A stretch of 48,844 bases of DNA from positions 1-48,844 of the forward strand of contig JAAYCJ010000037.1 of the NCBI GenBank assembly GCA_012729815.1. Direction: 5' to 3'. The position numbers and the translations under genes were made by a program. Positions 38,431-48,844 of this stretch are shown piece by piece. The notes under the pieces are model-generated. The model was not told where the DNA came from, did no database searches, and saw only the letters and a list, made by a program, of their open reading frames with translations. Position 1 is the stretch's first letter, and each line of letters begins with the position of its first letter. This stretch comes from Phycisphaerae bacterium (GTDB lineage: Bacteria > Planctomycetota > Phycisphaerae > JAAYCJ01).

Positions 38431-39984
38431 CTATTCCAGCGCAATAAAGATATTCCGGGTCGCTCCACCCTGGGTCAGGAAGTACAGGCGGATCCCCCCT
38501 CGTTCCCTCGCCGCTTCAACCGCCTGGGCGAATTCGTCGAGATTCGTCACCGGGCGGCCGTTGGCCCGCATGATCAGGCTCCCTTCGCTCAACCCAAGCC
38601 GGGCCGCGTTGCTGGTCGGGTCCACCTGCGTCACCAGCACGCCCTTGACGTTCTCGTACCCGTAGCGCTGGGCGCTCTCCGGGTCCAGCTCGCTGACCGT
38701 CACGCCCAGGTCATCGAAGCTGCGCTCCCCGTACTCCTGGTCCTCCATGCCCGGCATGCCGCCTTCCTGCTGGAAGAACCCCGCCGGCATCTTCTCCAGC
38801 GTGACGTTCAACTCCACCTTCGCTCCATCGCGCCAGACCGTCAGCGCCACCTCCTGGCCCGGAGGCGTCTGACTGACCAGCGTCTGGAGCTGCTGATTGT
38901 TGGAGATCGGCGTTCCGTTATAGGAAAGAATGACGTCATCCACCTTCAGCCCCGCCCGGCTGGCCGGGGTGTCCGGCATGACCTTGACCACCAGCGCGCC
39001 CTGCGTGTTCTCCAAACCGTACGATCGCGCCAGCGGCAGCGTCAGGTCGCCCGGCTGAAGCGCCACGCCCAGGTAGCTTCGCGTCACTTCCTCATTGTCG
39101 CGGAGCTGATCGGCCACGAAACGGGCCGTGCTCGACGGGATGGCAAAGCCGATCCCCGCGAACGACTGTGTGCCCGAAATGATCGCTGTGTTGACCCCGA
39201 TGATCCGGCCCCGCATGTCCACCAGCGGACCGCCCGAGTTGCCCGGGTTGATCGCCGCGTCCGTCTGGATGTAATTCGTATAAATGCTCAGCGGAACGTT
39301 GCCGCGACCCAGGTAGCTGATGATCCCCTGCGTGACCGTGTTGTCCAATCCGAACGGATTGCCCGCCGCCATCACCCAGTCGCCGACCTGCAACCGTTCC
39401 GAATCGGCAAACTCCAGCGCCGCCAGACCTTCCGCGTTGATCTTGATCAGCGCCAGGTCGGTCGGCGGGTCGGTCCGCACCCACTGGGCTTCGTACGACC
39501 GGCCGTCCGGGAACAGCACGCGAACCTTGTCCGCTCCCTGCACCACGTGGTTGTTGGTCAGGATGTAGCCGTCCGAGCCGATTACCACGCCGCTGCCCAA
39601 CCCGCCGCCGGGACGCTGACGCGGACGCCGACGCGGCGAGTCGGGATCGCGGAAAAACGGCCCGAAGAACCGCTCGAAATCCTCATCCGGGAACATCCGC
39701 GGACGCTCGCGGCTCGGCGTCGGCTCTTCCTGCGCCGCCGCCACCGACTCGATGTGCACCACCGACTGGCTGATCTTCTTGGCCACCGCGTTGAACACCC
39801 GGCTGATCCGCTCCGCCGCCGCCAGATCCTCCTCGGCGATCTCCAGGACCGGACGGGTGGTCGGGCTTCCCTGTTCTACCTGGGCCAACCCCGAAAGCGG
39901 CCCCAGGTTCCAGTAGAAGACCAGCAGCACCGCAAACGCAAAACCCAGTCCGAATCCCAACAGAGTCGATCTGCTCAGCTTCAT
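38431..39984 (-). CDS. HtrA/DegP-type periplasmic serine protease
   Basis: 517 residues from the ATG at 39984 (GGGAGG seven bases upstream). A single N-terminal hydrophobic anchor (LLGFGLGFAFAVLLVFYW) places it in the periplasm. Trypsin-fold triad: His in ILTNNHVVQGA, Asp in TDLALIKI, Ser in NPGNSGGPLVD (GNSGG). Two PDZ domains follow (YLGVALQPGDLTLPLARSYGL... and VTVSELDPESAQRYGYENVKGVLVTQV). An Arg/Pro-rich stretch (about residue 120) before the triad is odd but common in planctomycetes. Such enzymes degrade misfolded envelope proteins. It is downstream of purL across a short gap with a hairpin. Confidence 0.94.
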   Translation of the reverse strand: MKLSRSTLLGFGLGFAFAVLLVFYWNLGPLSGLAQVEQGSPTTRPVLEIAEEDLAAAERISRVFNAVAKKISQSVVHIESVAAAQEEPTPSRERPRMFPDEDFERFFGPFFRDPDSPRRRPRQRPGGGLGSGVVIGSDGYILTNNHVVQGADKVRVLFPDGRSYEAQWVRTDPPTDLALIKINAEGLAALEFADSERLQVGDWVMAAGNPFGLDNTVTQGIISYLGRGNVPLSIYTNYIQTDAAINPGNSGGPLVDMRGRIIGVNTAIISGTQSFAGIGFAIPSSTARFVADQLRDNEEVTRSYLGVALQPGDLTLPLARSYGLENTQGALVVKVMPDTPASRAGLKVDDVILSYNGTPISNNQQLQTLVSQTPPGQEVALTVWRDGAKVELNVTLEKMPAGFFQQEGGMPGMEDQEYGERSFDDLGVTVSELDPESAQRYGYENVKGVLVTQVDPTSNAARLGLSEGSLIMRANGRPVTNLDEFAQAVEAARERGGIRLYFLTQGGATRNIFIALE

Positions 39985-40035
39985 GACCCAGCCTCCCTTA
40001 GTATCATGCAGAATTACTGAAGTAGCCTCGCTCAT

Positions 40036-40056
40036 TGTGGGGTGTTGCCCCCCACA
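40036..40056. repeat. Hairpin between purL and HtrA genes
   Basis: TGTGGGG (40036-40042) / CCCCACA (40050-40056) with a seven-base loop, 11 bases past the purL stop and 51 bases before the HtrA start. There is no T-tract on the minus strand, so it may be an intercistronic processing or stability element rather than a terminator. Confidence 0.4.
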
Positions 40057-40066
40057 GGCTTTCCTA

Positions 40067-42964
40067 TTATCCCAGACGCATTCCACCCTGCCAACTGTTT
40101 TTTAGGCCCTCGATCGGCTCGCACAGGAGCTGTCGGCCGCTGGCATCCACCATCCGCACCTGCGGCGAGTCCGTCACCACCCCCAGCCGACAGACCGGAA
40201 TCCGCGCCGCCACCCGCAGGAACTCCCGCTCGTGCGCCGGGGCCACTTCGACCACCAGCCGGGTCGGCGACTCGCTGAAGATCAGCTCATCGATCCGCTC
40301 GATCTTCGACCGCTCAGCCAGCTCCGCAAGCGCCACGTCCAGCCCCCATCCGCCGGCAAACGCCATCTCCGCCAGCGCCACCGCCAACCCGCCCTCCGAA
40401 CAGTCGTGGCAGCTTCGCACCAGGCCCCGTTCGATCAGCCGGTGCATGTTCTTATAGATGAGCCGCGCCTCCTTGAAGTCCACTTTCGGCACCGAATTGC
40501 CCAGGTGACCCAGGATCGACCAGTAGTGCGACCCGCCCAACTCGGCTTTGGTCCGACCAATGAGATATATCACATTGCCCGGACGCTTGAGGTCCATCGT
40601 CACGCACCGGTGGATGTCGTTGACCAGCGCCATCGCACTGATCAGCAGCGTCCCCGGAATGGCGATCCGCTCGCCGCTTTCCGTGATGAACTCGTTGTTC
40701 AGCGAGTCCTTGCCCGAGACGAACGGCGCTCCCAGCGCCTTGGCCGCCGCATAGCAGCCCTGGGCCGTCCTCACGAAAGACCCCATCTTCTCCGGATCCT
40801 CGCAACTGCCCCAACAGAAGTTATCCAAAATCGCGCAGCGGCTCGGATCGCCACCGACCGCCACCACGTTGCGGATCGCCTCGTCGATGCAGCACGCCGC
40901 CATCCAGTACGGGTCGACCTCGCCGTAGTTCGGGTTGATCCCGCAGCCGATGGCCAACCCCTTGGACGAGGACAGGATCGGCTGGATCACCGCCGCGTCG
41001 CCCGGCCCTTCGTTGGTCACGCCCACCAGGGGTTTGACCACCGAACCGCCCTGGACCTCGTGGTCGTACTGGCGGATCACCCACTGCTTACTCGCGATGT
41101 TCAGGTGTCCCAACAGGTTATGGAGCATCCGCCCGCAATCCGGGCAATCGCCCTGGGGCTCGGAGTGCTGTTTGGGCTGCCAGCGGGCCTGCTTGACCGT
41201 CTTGGGATCGCCCTCGTGCAGGAACTCCATCTCCAACTCGCCGACCGCTGTGCCCTGATAGCGGAGGATCAGCTTCCGGTCGCTGCGGAACTCGCCGATC
41301 GCGGTCGCCTCGACGTCCTCAGCGTCGCAGATCGCCTTGAGTTGCGGCCACTGGGCCGGCGGAACCGCCAGCACCATCCGCTCCTGGGCCTCGCTGATCC
41401 AGATCTCGTCGTACCGGAGCCCCTCGTACTTCAGCGGCACCTTATCGAGGTCGATCTCGGCCCCGATCTCCGCCCCCATCTCGCCCACCGCGCTCGAGAG
41501 GCCGCCGGCGCCGCAGTCGGTGATGGCGCTATAGAGCGTGCCGCTTGGCCAGTCGCGGGCCTGGAGGATCACGTCCGTCACCTTCTTTTCCGTGATGGCG
41601 TTGCCGATCTGGACAGCGTGCGAGAACTCCTGGTCCGATCGGTCGGTCAGCTCGCCCGAGCTGAACGTGGCTCCGTGAATGCCGTCGCGCCCCGTCCGTC
41701 CGCCCACCACGACCACCAGGTCGCCCGGTTTGGCGGCTTTGAAGCACTTGTCCCTGGGGATCAGGCCGATGTTGCCGCAGTAGACCAGCGGGTTGCCCAG
41801 GAACCGGTCGTCGAACCAGATCGCCCCGTTGACGGTGGGGATGCCCATCCGGTTGCCGTAGTCGCGGACGCCCGAGACCACGCCCTTGAGCACCTTCCGC
41901 GGGTGCAGCACGCCGGCGGGCAGATCCTTGAGCTCGTAATCCGGCCTGGCAAAACAGAATACATCCGTATTGGCCACCGGCTTGGCCCCCAGCCCCGCCC
42001 CCAGCGGATCGCGGATCACCCCGCCGATCCCCGTCGACGCCCCGCCGTAGGGCTCGATCGCCGAGGGATGGTTGTGGGTCTCGACCTTGAAGCACACGCC
42101 GTACGTCTCATCGAACTCGATGATGCCCGCGTTGTCCTTGAACACGCTGATGCACCACGGGCGGTTCAACTCCTTGGTCGCCCTAAAAACCGTCGATTTC
42201 AACAGATTCTTGATCTTCCGGCGGCCTTCGGGCCCCTGATAGTCCACATCGCTACGGAAGGTCTTGTGGCCGCAGTGCTCGGACCAGGTCTGGGCGACCA
42301 TTTCGATTTCGACGTCGGTGGCCTCCCGGCCGATCCGACGATAGTACTCCTGGATCGTCCGCATCTCGGTCAGGTTCAGGAACAGGTCCGAAGCCTTCGA
42401 GAGCTCCATCAGGCCCTTCTCGTCCAGGTCGCGGATCGGCACGTGGCGGACCTGGAAACGGTGATCGGGCACCTCCACCGCCGGCTGAGCCCCGGTCGAA
42501 CCGAAGACGACCTGCTCGATGCAGTCGTTGGCGATGATCCGCGAGGCGATCAGGGCCTTCTGCTCCTGGTTAAGATTCCCCTCAAAAAAGTACATCCGCG
42601 CCGTCCGCACGTCGGCGGCCTCGATGCCGAGCTGGCGGATCGCCTGCTGCGTCGAAAGGGCCACCGGGTCCATAACTCCAGGCTTGGGGCTAACTTCCAT
42701 CACCACCCGGCCGTCGGCCTCGCCGGCAAAGCCCGGCGAATCGCACCAGATCTCCACCCGCTCGTGGACCGCGTCGGCCAGCAGGCGGGTCGCCAGTCCT
42801 TCGATCCGCTCGCGAGGCGCGTCGGAAGTGATCAGAAAGACCCGCCGGTGCTCGACGTTCCTGACGCCGCTGATGCCGAAATCGGCCAGCTCGTGCAAAA
42901 CGCCCTGGGCGTGGGGGTCGCCCGATCCGCCCAGACGCGATACTTCAATCCGCCAAACGTTCAT
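40067..42964 (-). CDS. purL: Phosphoribosylformylglycinamidine synthase, PurL type with PurS-like N-terminus
   Basis: 965 residues. Residues 1-75 ([25 protein letters not shown]) and about 88-160 ([34 protein letters not shown]) look like two PurS-like modules. The synthetase core follows: [10 protein letters not shown] (active-site His), [31 protein letters not shown]-like segment, NVDTKGG-type region [19 protein letters not shown], and [15 protein letters not shown]. No glutaminase domain, so PurQ must be elsewhere. Converts FGAR, ATP and glutamine-derived ammonia to FGAM. The ATG at 42964 overlaps the thioredoxin-like gene's stop (ATGA). Confidence 0.93.
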   Translation of the reverse strand: [965 protein letters not shown]

Positions 42965-45017: not shown

Positions 45018-45197
45018 CTACGGCGCGGCGCGCCCGCCGAACAGCCCAAGAATGAGCAGGACGACGAACACCACCAAAAAGATGAAGAACAGGATCTTGG
45101 CGATCCCCGCAGCGGCGCCGGCCACCCCGGTAAACCCCAGGGCCGCGGCGATCAACGCGATCACCAGGAATAAAATGGTCCAACCTAACAAACCCAT
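45018..45197 (-). CDS. DUF1328 small membrane protein (YtjA-like)
   Basis: 59 residues: [22 protein letters not shown], then [31 protein letters not shown], two transmembrane helices joined by a short Gly-Ala loop, ending GGRAAP. This is the DUF1328 family, unknown role, often stress-linked in other bacteria. AAAGGAG precedes the ATG at 45197. It is preceded by the PRC-barrel gene (start at 46740, stop at 45364), leaving 166 bp without a clear signal. Confidence 0.87.
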
Positions 45198-45363
45198 GAT
45201 CCGCTCCTTTCTGCGATCCTCCGACCGAACGCCGTTGCTTGTTTCGCCGTCCGATCGCCCCGTGTTCGCAACGCTTGTCTTCGTATGCCAATTCGCTCGG
45301 CCAGCATCACTCTTCATTCGGCGAAACGCCGGCCAGGCCGCGCTTCCGCCGATTACGATCACG

Positions 45364-46740
45364 CTACTTGTTGGCATCCTTCTGAGGATGCTGCTTCTGG
45401 GCCTCACGCTGGGCCTGGCGCTCTCTGGCCGGCACGGCCCGCAGATCCTCGGTCGTCCACTTCGGTTCGCCCGTCGGGCTGCGCAACTCAAGCGTCTGAT
45501 CGCCCTTCTGAATCTGGCCCGCCATCAGGACCGAGCGCCCGTTGACCTTCGTGGACGAGCCCTTGACCGTCACGCGGTCGCCGTAATAGAACTCGATCCC
45601 CTGGCGGTGCGCGTAGGCCTCCGGACCGGCGTACACCGTCACGGTGCCGCCGTCGGTGGTCTTGACCCGCAGCCGCAGGCCGGGCAGCGCGTTGGTGTCC
45701 GGCCGGAACGTCCCGACGCTCTGGATCGTCCCGCGAATCGTCTGGATCTGCTCCGGATCGAAGTTCTCGTTGTACGTGCTGCCGGGCAGCCACGGTTCGC
45801 TGCTCAGCGTCCCGTCGCCCTCCACGTACCCGAACACCTGCCAGTACGGCTCCTGGTCAAAGTGGCTGTGGATCCGCCGCGCGTACGCCGGGTTCGACAG
45901 GTCCGGCGCGTCGCCCTCGTTGTACGCGATCGACTTCAGCGAGTTCTTGGTCACGTCCAGGCGGAACGTGTCCAGCCGCGGACGCGCCTCCAGGGCGCTC
46001 CACGGCGCCGCGGCCAGCTCCTCGCCGATCCCCAGGATGCCGCCCCACGAGAGGATCGCATACACCAACCGGCCCTCGTGCATGTCGATCACCACGTTCT
46101 CCACGTCGCCGAGCGAGACGCCCTCGAGGTTCTTGACCTCCGTGCCGATGACCTTGCTCAACCGGCGAAACTCCATCTTGTCCTTGGCCACGGTCGTCCG
46201 CTGACCCGGCTGGTCGGCGGTTTCAGCCTCGGCGCTCACGTCGCCGTTGGTCGGCTGATTCTCGCGGTACTGCTGCGACTCCTCCTGGTAGAACTGGTGC
46301 ACGCCTTGGCTCCACCGCGGATCGCCCATGTTCGGCCAGTTATCCTTGTTAAATCCGGGCGCCGCCTTGAGGCGATCCTTCTCGACGTCCAGCACCATCG
46401 CGTCGTTGGCCGCCGACATCGTCAGGGCCGACCACGGAATGGCGAAGTACTTGTCGCCGATCCCGAGGAACCCGCCGCGGGCCAGCACCGCGTACGATAC
46501 GCGATCCTCGTTGGCGCTGAGCACCAGGTCGTCAATTCGGCCCAGATCCTCACCGGCCGGATTCTGCACCTTCAGGCCGATCAGGTGCGACGCCTTCTGA
46601 AGCAGCGGCTGAAACTCCCCTTGTCGCTCCGGCTGATCCGACTGCGCCTGCTGCTGGCCGACCACCGGAACCGCGACGAGCGTGAACAGCGCGCCGCCTA
46701 CCAGAAATAGACTTGTCCAAAACCATCGTGTGCGATCCAT
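45364..46740 (-). CDS. Secreted PRC-barrel protein with OB-like C-terminal domain
   Basis: 458 residues from the ATG at 46740 (AGGAGG nine bases upstream). Signal peptide: [32 protein letters not shown]-barrel 1 at about 45-115 ([56 protein letters not shown]). PRC-barrel 2 at about 188-265 ([54 protein letters not shown]). OB-like segment at about 325-440 ([34 protein letters not shown]). Tail [10 protein letters not shown]. Paralog of the gene at the right edge. Periplasmic or cell-surface role inferred from the signal peptide; function unknown. Confidence 0.88.
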
Positions 46741-47233
46741 AGCTGAACCTCCTATTGGCTCAGGCGACGAGTTGCCTGTGCAGCGGACGATCACCCAATC
46801 GCCACCTTGCCCCCGGAACTGCAGACAACTCCATCAACCCCCTAGGTTTCTACCCAAGTATAGAGCCACCACCGACCACCCACAATCGGGACAGGCCATG
46901 AATCTCCCATCAGGGAAACGGCGGATGCCGCGCCACCCGCACCCAGGCGGCATCGGTCCGATCCGCCGCCGCGCCATGCCACAAACGCTGGAGTCCCAAC
47001 CCGCTGAACCCAACACCTTTCCTGCCTGACGGTAAATTGATGGTGCCGCCCCCAGCCGCGTCGCAAGCCTTGACTCGCCTCAACCCGTCGGCGCACCGGC
47101 CCGAAACCGGCGCAACACAGAGGGCCCGACGAAACGATCGCTCGCTTCGCCGGGCCCAATCCCCTTGCCGGCCATCGTGATGCCGGCCTGTTGCCCACAC
47201 TGTCAGCAGTTCCAGATCACGCGTCGGACCAGG
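46741..47233. other. Non-coding gap between the two PRC-barrel genes
   Basis: About 490 bases. Besides the promoter candidate at 46857-46885, two hairpins stand out. GGGCCCG...CGGGCCC (47122-47157) carries a CGAA/TTCG inner pairing. GCCGGCCATC-GT-GATGCCGGC (about 47167-47187) has one bulge. Neither has a T-run on the minus strand, so neither is a classical terminator for the downstream-end gene at 47234. Short frames here look like GC-rich shadows. No tRNA-like segment was found. Confidence 0.6.
46857..46885 (-). promoter_or_regulatory. Probable promoter of the PRC-barrel gene
   Basis: Minus strand TTGTGG (46880-46885), 17-bp spacer, TATACT (46857-46862, five of six -10 bases). It would give a leader of about 110 bases before the ATG at 46740. 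The best candidate in the gap; the -35 is weak. Confidence 0.45.
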
Positions 47234-48844
47234 CTACTCCTTGTGCTCCTGCTTCTGCTGTCTGTCCTGATCCTTTTGCTTCTCCTGATCCTGCTGGCCC
47301 TGTTGCCCCTGGCCCTGCTGTTGCATCTGCTCGAGCTGGCTGGCATCCCACTGGGGCTGGCCCTGCTCATCGCGCAACTGCAGCGTCTGGTCGTCCTTCT
47401 GGACCTGCGTGGCCATGATGATGGACTGGCCCTCATGCTGCGCGGTCGCGCCCTGGATCTGGACCTGATCGCCCTGGTTGAACGAGAGCCCCTTCTGCTG
47501 GACGAAGGCCACCGGCCCCAGATGGACCATCTGGGTCTGGCCCTCCTGCGCCTGGACCAGCAGCATCAGCCCCGGCATCGCGCCGGCCTCCGGCTGGAAC
47601 ATCCCGACCTGCTGGACCGTGCCCTGGACGCTCTGGACCTGGTCGGCCTTGAACTGCTGGTTGTACTGGCTCTCAGCCTTCCAGGCATCGACCGCACCGC
47701 CTGGCCGGCCCTGCCCTTGCTTCTGTTGCTGTCTCTGGCGGTCCTGCTGACGCTGCTGGGCGCCCTGCGGCTGGCCTTCCTGCGCGCTCTGGCGGAACTC
47801 GCCGCCGCGCTGCATGCGCTGCTGCTCCATCTGCTGGAGCTGGTTGGCGTCCCACTGCGGCTGACCCTGCTCGTTGCGCAACTGCAGCGTCTGGTCCCCC
47901 TTCTTGAGCTGCGAGGCGAGCACCACGTTCTGACCGTCGATCTTGGCCTGCGACCCGGTGATGGTCACCTCGTCGCCGTAATGGAAGTTCAGGCCCTTCT
48001 GGCTCGCGTAGGCCCGCGGACCGGCGTGCACGATCATGCTCTTGCCGTCCTGGGTTTTGACCCGCAGACGCAGTCCCGCCGTCGAGCCCGACTCCGGATG
48101 GAACGTCCCGACGCTCTGGATCGTCCCCTGCATCGTCTGGACCTCGTCGGCCTTGAACTGCTGGTTGTACTGGCTGTCGGCCTTCCACGCCTCGATCGAC
48201 CCGGCCTGTTCCCGCCCGGGCACGTACCCGTAGACCTGCCAGTACGGCTCCTGATCGAACTGCTGGTAGAGGTTCATCACGTAGCTGCGGTCGAACTCCG
48301 GATACTCACCGCCCTCCAGCTTGGCGGCCTCGAGCATCTTCTGATCCGCGTCGATCCGCGCCACCTCCTGGCGCGGCCGGATCGTCACCGAACTCCACGG
48401 CACCGCCGACATGTCCTCGCCGATGCCAAGGACGCCGCCGTACGAGATGATCGCGGCCACCAGGTGCCCGCTGTTCGTGTCGATCATTACGTTCTCGATC
48501 TCGCCGAGATCCTCAGCCTGGCGGCCCTGGACCTCCGTCCCGATCAACTGCGAAAGCCGGCGGGTCCAGAAGTACTCGCCCTGGCCCTCAGCCCCGCCGC
48601 GGCCCGACGCGCTCTGGCCCGTCTCCCCGCCACGGCCCCAGCCGTCGGTCTCGCCTTCCTCTTCAATGATGAGCACGTCCGTCTCGCCATTGTCCCCGCC
48701 GGTCAACGCCTCACCGCTCCGTCGGCCGCGCTCCATGCCGCTCTCCCCAGCCTCGCCGACGTCCTCCGCCCCGCGACCGACGTCTTCGGCTCCGCGCTCC
48801 GCGGCACGGCCGACGTCCTGAGCCCCGCGGCCGATGTCCTCGGC
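47234..48844 (-). CDS. PRC-barrel protein with two OB-like domains and Gln-rich linkers (5' end cut by right edge)
   Basis: At least 536 residues; the frame is open through the right edge, so the N-terminus is missing. The first visible residues form seven-residue units (AEDIGRG, AQDVGRA, AERG, AEDVGRG, AEDVGEA). One PRC-barrel follows (LSQLIGTEVQGRQAEDLGEIENVMIDTNSGHLVAAIISYGGVLGIGEDMSAVPWSSV). Then come two OB-like units that repeat each other: AWKADSQYNQQFKADEVQTM...QPQWDANQ and AWKAESQYNQQFKADQVQSV...QPQWDASQ, about 165 residues apart. A Gln/Arg-rich stretch joins them and a Gln/Lys-rich tail ends the protein. Paralog of the gene at 45364. Confidence 0.87.
   Translation of the reverse strand, partial: AEDIGRGAQDVGRAAERGAEDVGRGAEDVGEAGESGMERGRRSGEALTGGDNGETDVLIIEEEGETDGWGRGGETGQSASGRGGAEGQGEYFWTRRLSQLIGTEVQGRQAEDLGEIENVMIDTNSGHLVAAIISYGGVLGIGEDMSAVPWSSVTIRPRQEVARIDADQKMLEAAKLEGGEYPEFDRSYVMNLYQQFDQEPYWQVYGYVPGREQAGSIEAWKADSQYNQQFKADEVQTMQGTIQSVGTFHPESGSTAGLRLRVKTQDGKSMIVHAGPRAYASQKGLNFHYGDEVTITGSQAKIDGQNVVLASQLKKGDQTLQLRNEQGQPQWDANQLQQMEQQRMQRGGEFRQSAQEGQPQGAQQRQQDRQRQQQKQGQGRPGGAVDAWKAESQYNQQFKADQVQSVQGTVQQVGMFQPEAGAMPGLMLLVQAQEGQTQMVHLGPVAFVQQKGLSFNQGDQVQIQGATAQHEGQSIIMATQVQKDDQTLQLRDEQGQPQWDASQLEQMQQQGQGQQGQQDQEKQKDQDRQQKQEHKE

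Follow-up and report, generated by a model that had tools for sequence, protein, structure and literature searches.

Results

At the end of a 48,844-nucleotide contig of a Phycisphaerae bacterium (JAAYCJ010000037.1 of assembly GCA_012729815.1; the window, or C37, means this whole stretch of DNA), two genes on the minus strand encode proteins, here P1 and P2, that combine PRC-barrel domains with units resembling the oligonucleotide/oligosaccharide-binding (OB) fold. An earlier note, based on the sequence letters alone, had described the two as paralogs sharing this combination, and we find the same: all four of their PRC units exceed the gathering threshold of PF05239 (21.2 bits), and the three OB units, one in P1 and two in P2, are 41-59% identical pairwise over 120 residues. 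P1 (458 residues; 45367..46740, minus strand) begins with an ATG at 46740, preceded by the Shine-Dalgarno sequence AGGAGG, and its stop codon lies just below 45367. Its order is signal peptide-PRC-PRC-OB, the signal peptide being called both by a simple heuristic and by eye. The whole protein matches the PRC-barrel model with an E-value of 3.9e-25; the first barrel lies at 46372..46593 (54.5 bits) and the second, with its PYWQVFGYV tail, at 45946..46176 (40.9 bits). The OB unit (45442..45801) is defined by alignment and by a match of 218 bits to an OB profile that includes this unit itself. PF05239 and the OB alignment thereby confirm the proposed two PRC-barrels and one OB unit for this protein.

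The visible part of P2 (536 residues; 47237..48844, minus strand) is open at its 5' end, where it meets the end of the contig, and as a whole matches the PRC-barrel model with an E-value of 1.1e-10. It contains a PRC-barrel at 48350..48559 (46.0 bits) and two OB units, the first at 47837..48196 (alignment, OB profile and structure model) and the second at 47333..47692 (alignment and OB profile; a match to the MamS model discussed below spans 47348-47791). The starts of these units are 168 residues apart, as against the roughly 165 first estimated. They are separated by a 48-residue linker that is 40% glutamine (47693..47836), and the tail of the protein is also Gln-rich, with 47%. The Gln-rich linkers previously noted are thus a property of P2, but not of P1, where glutamine amounts to 7%. 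Towards the contig end lies the AEDVGRG-type repeat (48710..48844, limits approximate), which had been described as a seven-residue repeat. It is real, with 19 identities at lag 7, a value reached in none of 20,000 shuffles; however, lag 11 scores still higher, with 22 identities, so that the period is a mixed one of 7 + 11 = 18 residues. The repeat probably forms an amphipathic helix.

As the window is a whole contig and P2 runs off its end, the gene has to be completed from elsewhere. The window ends in 38 bp that are identical to the first 38 bp of another contig of the assembly, C347, with the frame kept, and this 38-mer occurs only at those two sites in the genome, even when up to three mismatches are allowed. 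The stretch AEDIGRGAQDVG is encoded on both sides of the junction, and the P2 frame runs on continuously over C347:692-1. This join is supported independently by a DUF1570 gene just upstream of the P2 start on C347, as is also found before PRC-OB genes in seven other genomes. C347 supplies the missing end of P2: a signal peptide (judged by eye after joining), a Gln-rich stretch and another PRC-barrel, the first of the protein (C347:243-467; 57.1 bits). Joined P2 has 754 residues in the order signal peptide-Q-rich-PRC-repeat-PRC-OB-Q-linker-OB. The count of one PRC-barrel and two OB units given earlier is therefore right for the visible part, while the single barrel is an artefact of the contig edge. 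Likewise, an envelope role had been deduced from one secreted copy; the extracytoplasmic location stands, but since joined P2 gains a signal peptide and a PRC-barrel, both proteins look secreted, each with two barrels. At the C347 end of the repeat the DNA has a 21-bp period. Probably it was the repeat that broke the assembly here, and the repeat count across the junction may therefore be off.

The YWQV-(F/Y)GYV stretch shared by P1 and P2, previously taken for a linker, is real and in both forms the tail at the C-terminus of the second PRC domain. The genome also encodes two solo PRC proteins, which terminate in EPYWLHV and EPYWQHV, and in most PRC-PRC-OB-type relatives a P-(Y/Q)-W motif followed by G(Y/F) comes before the OB unit. 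PF05239 also includes the C-terminal domain of RimM and the H subunit of the photosynthetic reaction centre; in contrast to these, the PRC units of P1 and P2 are exported, occur in tandem and are fused to OB units. A kinship with RimM beyond the PRC fold was rejected, with TIGR02273 scores of 14.5 and 12.7 bits against a cut-off of 66.2. Neither can P1 and P2 be called a recent duplication: the OB tree, which omits five overlapping loci, duplicates and any fragment shorter than 85 residues, does not resolve this.

None of the 12 members of the OB alignment or of seven further homologues reached the cut-off of any Pfam family; BOF gave no match at E ≤ 1 in this set, and the weak hits to DUF7055, DUF7012, DUF3947 and similar families were discarded as scattered and below cut-off. 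No credible match was found to sequence profiles of the PDB, and matches of the OB profile to polyubiquitin turned out to be sums over many domains, with single-domain E-values of 39-1100. An AlphaFold2 (AF2) model of the first OB unit of P2, based on six aligned sequences, has a pLDDT of 92 and a pTM of 0.86, with elements in the order β-β-β-α-β-β (strands 20-32, 41-48, 53-60, 76-86 and 89-99; helix 61-66), which gives the barrel of five strands, with a helix between the third and the fourth, that defines an OB fold. Foldseek returned 37 chains at E ≤ 0.001 (best 1.1e-4) and VIA gave PriB as the best match (Z 10.1, rmsd 2.0, 82 aligned residues), the neighbours in both being OB folds of the SSB, PriB, RPA and LysRS type. 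On the strength of this model we confidently assign the unit to the OB fold, as the earlier note had supposed. Conserved in the alignment are W, Y, G-P and R-D..G.P.W.

Among NCBIfam models, MamS (NF040991) was the best match for all eight OB-carrying proteins tested (E 3.8e-8 to 0.013; 15.6-33.7 bits). Of the alignment members, 10 of 12 matched it (best 1e-5), compared with two for MamX, weakly, and one for YgiW/YdeI (TIGR00156, E 0.16). The match is of domain length, covering residues ~80-182 of the 186 in MamS. When the model was run on 22 genomes, nine of the 18 with PRC-OB proteins had a match at E ≤ 0.001, each inside the PRC-OB open reading frame (ORF), and in the window's own genome the match lies within P2 (E 0.0012). 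At E ≤ 1, 16 of the 22 genomes matched, with a few matches elsewhere, and weak ones appeared in two of 14 control genomes. The equivalog cut-off of 200 bits was reached in none of the 22, and we therefore regard the unit as a MamS-like domain, not as MamS itself. From the sequence comparison, the two appear to be homologous over the domain, the match being weak, but specific among the library families. The possibility that the unit is a well-described domain in a common architecture, which the earlier note had raised against itself, is not what we find: the unit has no Pfam family, and its similarity to MamS is weak. In a structure-prediction paper, MamS and the C-terminus of MamX are described as OB folds, and both proteins as acting in magnetite maturation (PMC3905215). 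The OB units of P1 and P2 share this fold with them, but are fused to PRC-barrels and score 15-34 bits against the required 200.

A profile built from the three OB units of the window matched 21 of 298 genomes sampled from the class, and in 17 of these PRC and OB share one ORF. The other four comprise two with tandem OB units (G005, G026), one with a lone OB unit (G130), and G276, in which a PYW tail precedes the OB frame, where no PRC could be detected. The fusions are spread over several orders of the class and occur as PRC-PRC-OB, PRC-PRC-OB-OB (joined P2), OB-PRC-PRC-OB, PRC-OB-PRC and PRC-OB-PRC-OB. The simple heuristic found a signal peptide in 17 of 18 PRC-OB ORFs, and in the remaining one (G293) the region near the start looks hydrophobic too. 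In a sample of the phylum the profile matched 36 of 392 genomes, seven of them in the window's class; no PRC was present in any of the 23 out-of-class loci fetched, and outside the class the OB unit is mostly standalone. Secreted proteins of this kind, ~160-195 residues long, occur in metagenome-assembled genomes of Syntrophus, Desulfobacca and Acidobacteriaceae, with 36-37% identity over the domain in tblastn; a plasmid search added a locus in Stanieria with matches to both OB units of P2. These, together with probable Brocadiales proteins, carry an OB unit homologous to that of P1 and P2, but only one or two such units and no PRC that we could see. No plasmid record covered 80% of P2, and the matches listed were mostly solo PRC proteins. 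We found no description of a secreted PRC+OB family in our searches of open-licence papers, where PRC-barrels led to work on archaeal chromosomal proteins and the DUF1570 name to a deep-sea metagenome; the combination, called unfamiliar in the earlier note, is apparently undescribed, and it recurs within the class.

The genes on C347 and the window follow one another on one strand in the order DUF1570, P2, P1, DUF1328. The DUF1570 gene directly upstream of the P2 start (PF07607, 67.7 bits, cut-off 22) is a separate gene, yet a conserved neighbour: eight of 18 PRC-OB genomes have DUF1570 immediately upstream in the same orientation, against an expectation of 0.03. These eight (G000, the window's genome, and G069, G055, G218, G134, G185, G178 and G217) represent five families, with G178 and G217 in the same genus. 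For these context counts the 18 genomes include G276, and extents are approximate for G285, G142, G292, G106, G171 and G276, none of which has a near match; the probabilities assume independent genomes, which these are not fully. All eight paired DUF1570 proteins contain HExxH followed by EGxA...E, in the setting HExxHQL...GLxKRxVMYPxWxxEGxA or near it, and H, E, H and E are invariant in an alignment of seven. With HExxH and a downstream Glu, the motif that marks gluzincins, the gene is predicted to encode a gluzincin metallopeptidase. DUF1570 itself is broad, the profile of the paired proteins matching 245 of the 298 class genomes. Among the best 30 loci of the class, the eight paired ones group with three unpaired ones (family f10) in a single clade with support of 100/99, and none of the remaining 19 is paired; the ranking is partly circular, as the profile was built from seven of the eight, the tree less so. 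Two of the unpaired members of this clade (L095 and L096, in G174 and G140) adjoin collagen-like G-X-X repeat proteins.

Directly downstream of P1 lies a gene for the small membrane protein DUF1328 (45018..45200, minus strand; PF07043, E 1.6e-14; start MGLLGW approximate), matched with 57.5 bits at 45060-45176; no second copy was found in the genome. DUF1328 occurs within 2 kb of PRC-OB in six of 18 genomes (0.025 expected), and in G185 it stands between DUF1570 and PRC-OB. Other PRC-OB neighbours, each in a single genome except DUF892 in two, include Pmp3, catalase, peroxiredoxin and FUR. Such stress-type neighbours were chosen by eye and have no background count; two of ten neighbour proteins scanned, one DUF883-like and the other rich in glycine, stayed below every cut-off.

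Discussion

Computation shows the domain content, secretion signals and OB fold of P1 and P2, as well as their recurrence and conserved gene pairing. As to function, we consider it somewhat short of an even chance (about 0.45) that they are exported adaptors or scaffolds acting with the upstream DUF1570 protein, a predicted secreted metallopeptidase, in an envelope or oxidative-stress response. The two paralogs would be beads-on-a-string proteins, probably located in the periplasm or outer envelope, in which PRC-barrels serve as protein-docking modules, MamS-like OB modules bind a peptide or protein ligand, and Gln-rich or repeat linkers act as spacers. Such a scaffold might present, protect or restrain substrates of the peptidase, alongside DUF1328 and other small membrane proteins of stress type; a physical partnership with the peptidase, the type of ligand and induction by stress are the parts of this proposal that we infer.

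In favour of this proposal are the signal peptides, the DUF1570 pairing with its HExxH motif and supported clade, the nearby DUF1328 genes and the other stress-type neighbours. We favour a scaffold whose OB modules bind peptides or proteins because PRC-barrels elsewhere are protein-docking domains, and because of two precedents. In Sinorhizobium meliloti, a PRC-barrel gene is listed alongside the RpoE2 general-stress targets (PMC6180224), and periplasmic OB-fold proteins of the SipA/YgiW type are described as guarding against peroxide and cadmium, with SipA binding antimicrobial peptides (PMC6370654). Like the OB units studied here, YgiW, YdeI and SipA are exported OB-fold domains, and a stress-type context is suggested for both; they differ in that just one of 12 units matches their family model, and YgiW (1NNX) was not among the 50 fold matches listed for the P2 unit.

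Several observations weigh against this proposal. PRC and OB folds alone specify no function. The DUF1570 pairing is absent from 10 of 18 genomes, including all seven with the PRC-OB-PRC order, and three of the 11 DUF1570 proteins of the pairing clade have no PRC-OB neighbour. Intergenic gaps of ~350-500 bp in the window's genome, along with a possible terminator between P2 and P1, speak against one tight operon, and a search for a sigma-70-type promoter found none. An AF2 model of full-length P1 is confident in the OB unit and poor in the remainder (pLDDT 55), and was discarded there.

Some of these points would fit a passive role in envelope stress or hydration. PRC-OB proteins would then buffer or cross-link envelope components when cells are dried or oxidatively stressed, with DUF1570 merely a co-inherited neighbour. 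This is the foremost competitor, to which we would give about one chance in four: possible, yet clearly behind a peptidase-linked scaffold. DUF1328 next to PRC-OB, the stress-type neighbours, the low-complexity linkers and the 11/18-residue repeat would all suit it, as would the PRC-OB-PRC type with its lack of DUF1570 linkage; on the other hand, a same-strand upstream DUF1570 in eight genomes of five families is strong for mere co-inheritance, and the conserved OB positions suggest a defined domain rather than filler.

The gene pairing, the predicted secretion and the OB fold would also suit an inhibitor or latency partner of the metallopeptidase, given that animal TIMPs inhibit metalloproteinases through an N-terminal domain with an OB fold. 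We regard this as unlikely: the OB units have no TIMP-type N-terminal cysteine or disulphide pattern, solo OB proteins exist, and no TIMP was among the 50 fold matches listed for the P2 unit. Similarly improbable is a metal- or mineral-surface module, in which the OB unit, being related to MamS and MamX, would deal with envelope metal or redox chemistry; while MamS is the best family match and takes part in magnetite maturation, the OB alignment holds no conserved set of Cys or His, and the scores are far below the MamS cut-off. Least probable is binding of extracellular DNA, since the likeness to ssDNA-binding OB proteins among the top fold matches shows no function and the charge is unfavourable, with a net -7 to 0 for the OB units and -12 and -34 for the acidic mature proteins.

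Beyond the scaffold proposal, one may speculate, at rather long odds, that the MamS-like OB domain is a general extracytoplasmic module from which MamS and MamX are specialised offshoots, and that PRC-OB scaffolds under a dedicated secreted metallopeptidase parallel the magnetosome protease MamE with MamS and MamX. If true, such a protease-coupled envelope system would be a route to learning what MamS does. The novelty of PRC-OB lies in a new combination of known domains, and its interest comes mainly from the relation to MamS and the conserved pairing with a peptidase gene: it is a recurrent secreted family whose OB domain lacks a Pfam model and is tied to a poorly understood protein, and its conserved partner, a predicted metallopeptidase, makes its function testable in non-magnetotactic bacteria.

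Further features of the locus and related genomes

After the P2 stop, a 16-bp hairpin with a T-containing tail (47122..47157, minus strand) is possibly a terminator, which would make P2 and P1 separate transcription units; with two hairpins found against 1.8 expected, the signal is weak. A few kb from P1, at 38434-40101 on the minus strand, the window encodes an HtrA-type protease (Trypsin_2 + PDZ), separated from P1 by a thioredoxin-like gene and a long ORF that presumably is purL.

Elsewhere in the window's genome (L068, C242:28000-47900), two solo PRC genes, a P-type ATPase, DUF883, a Zn-alcohol dehydrogenase, an OB-OB gene and DUF2254 lie within 20 kb, possibly a stress island with PRC and OB as separate proteins. 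Its OB-OB protein is secreted and Gln-rich, with an EF-hand-like DWDQDGTFDAYEY stretch. At four loci in other genomes of the phylum (L009, L012, L010 and L063), the encoded proteins are secreted, rich in D, Y and W, and carry two to four MamS-like OB units but lack a PRC. Finally, three HZS_alpha domain matches occur in G055:C1, within the window's own class, so that the domain also occurs outside anammox hydrazine synthase; its presence in phylum genomes of families f68 and f113 was therefore rejected as proof that these are anammox bacteria and taken as indicative.

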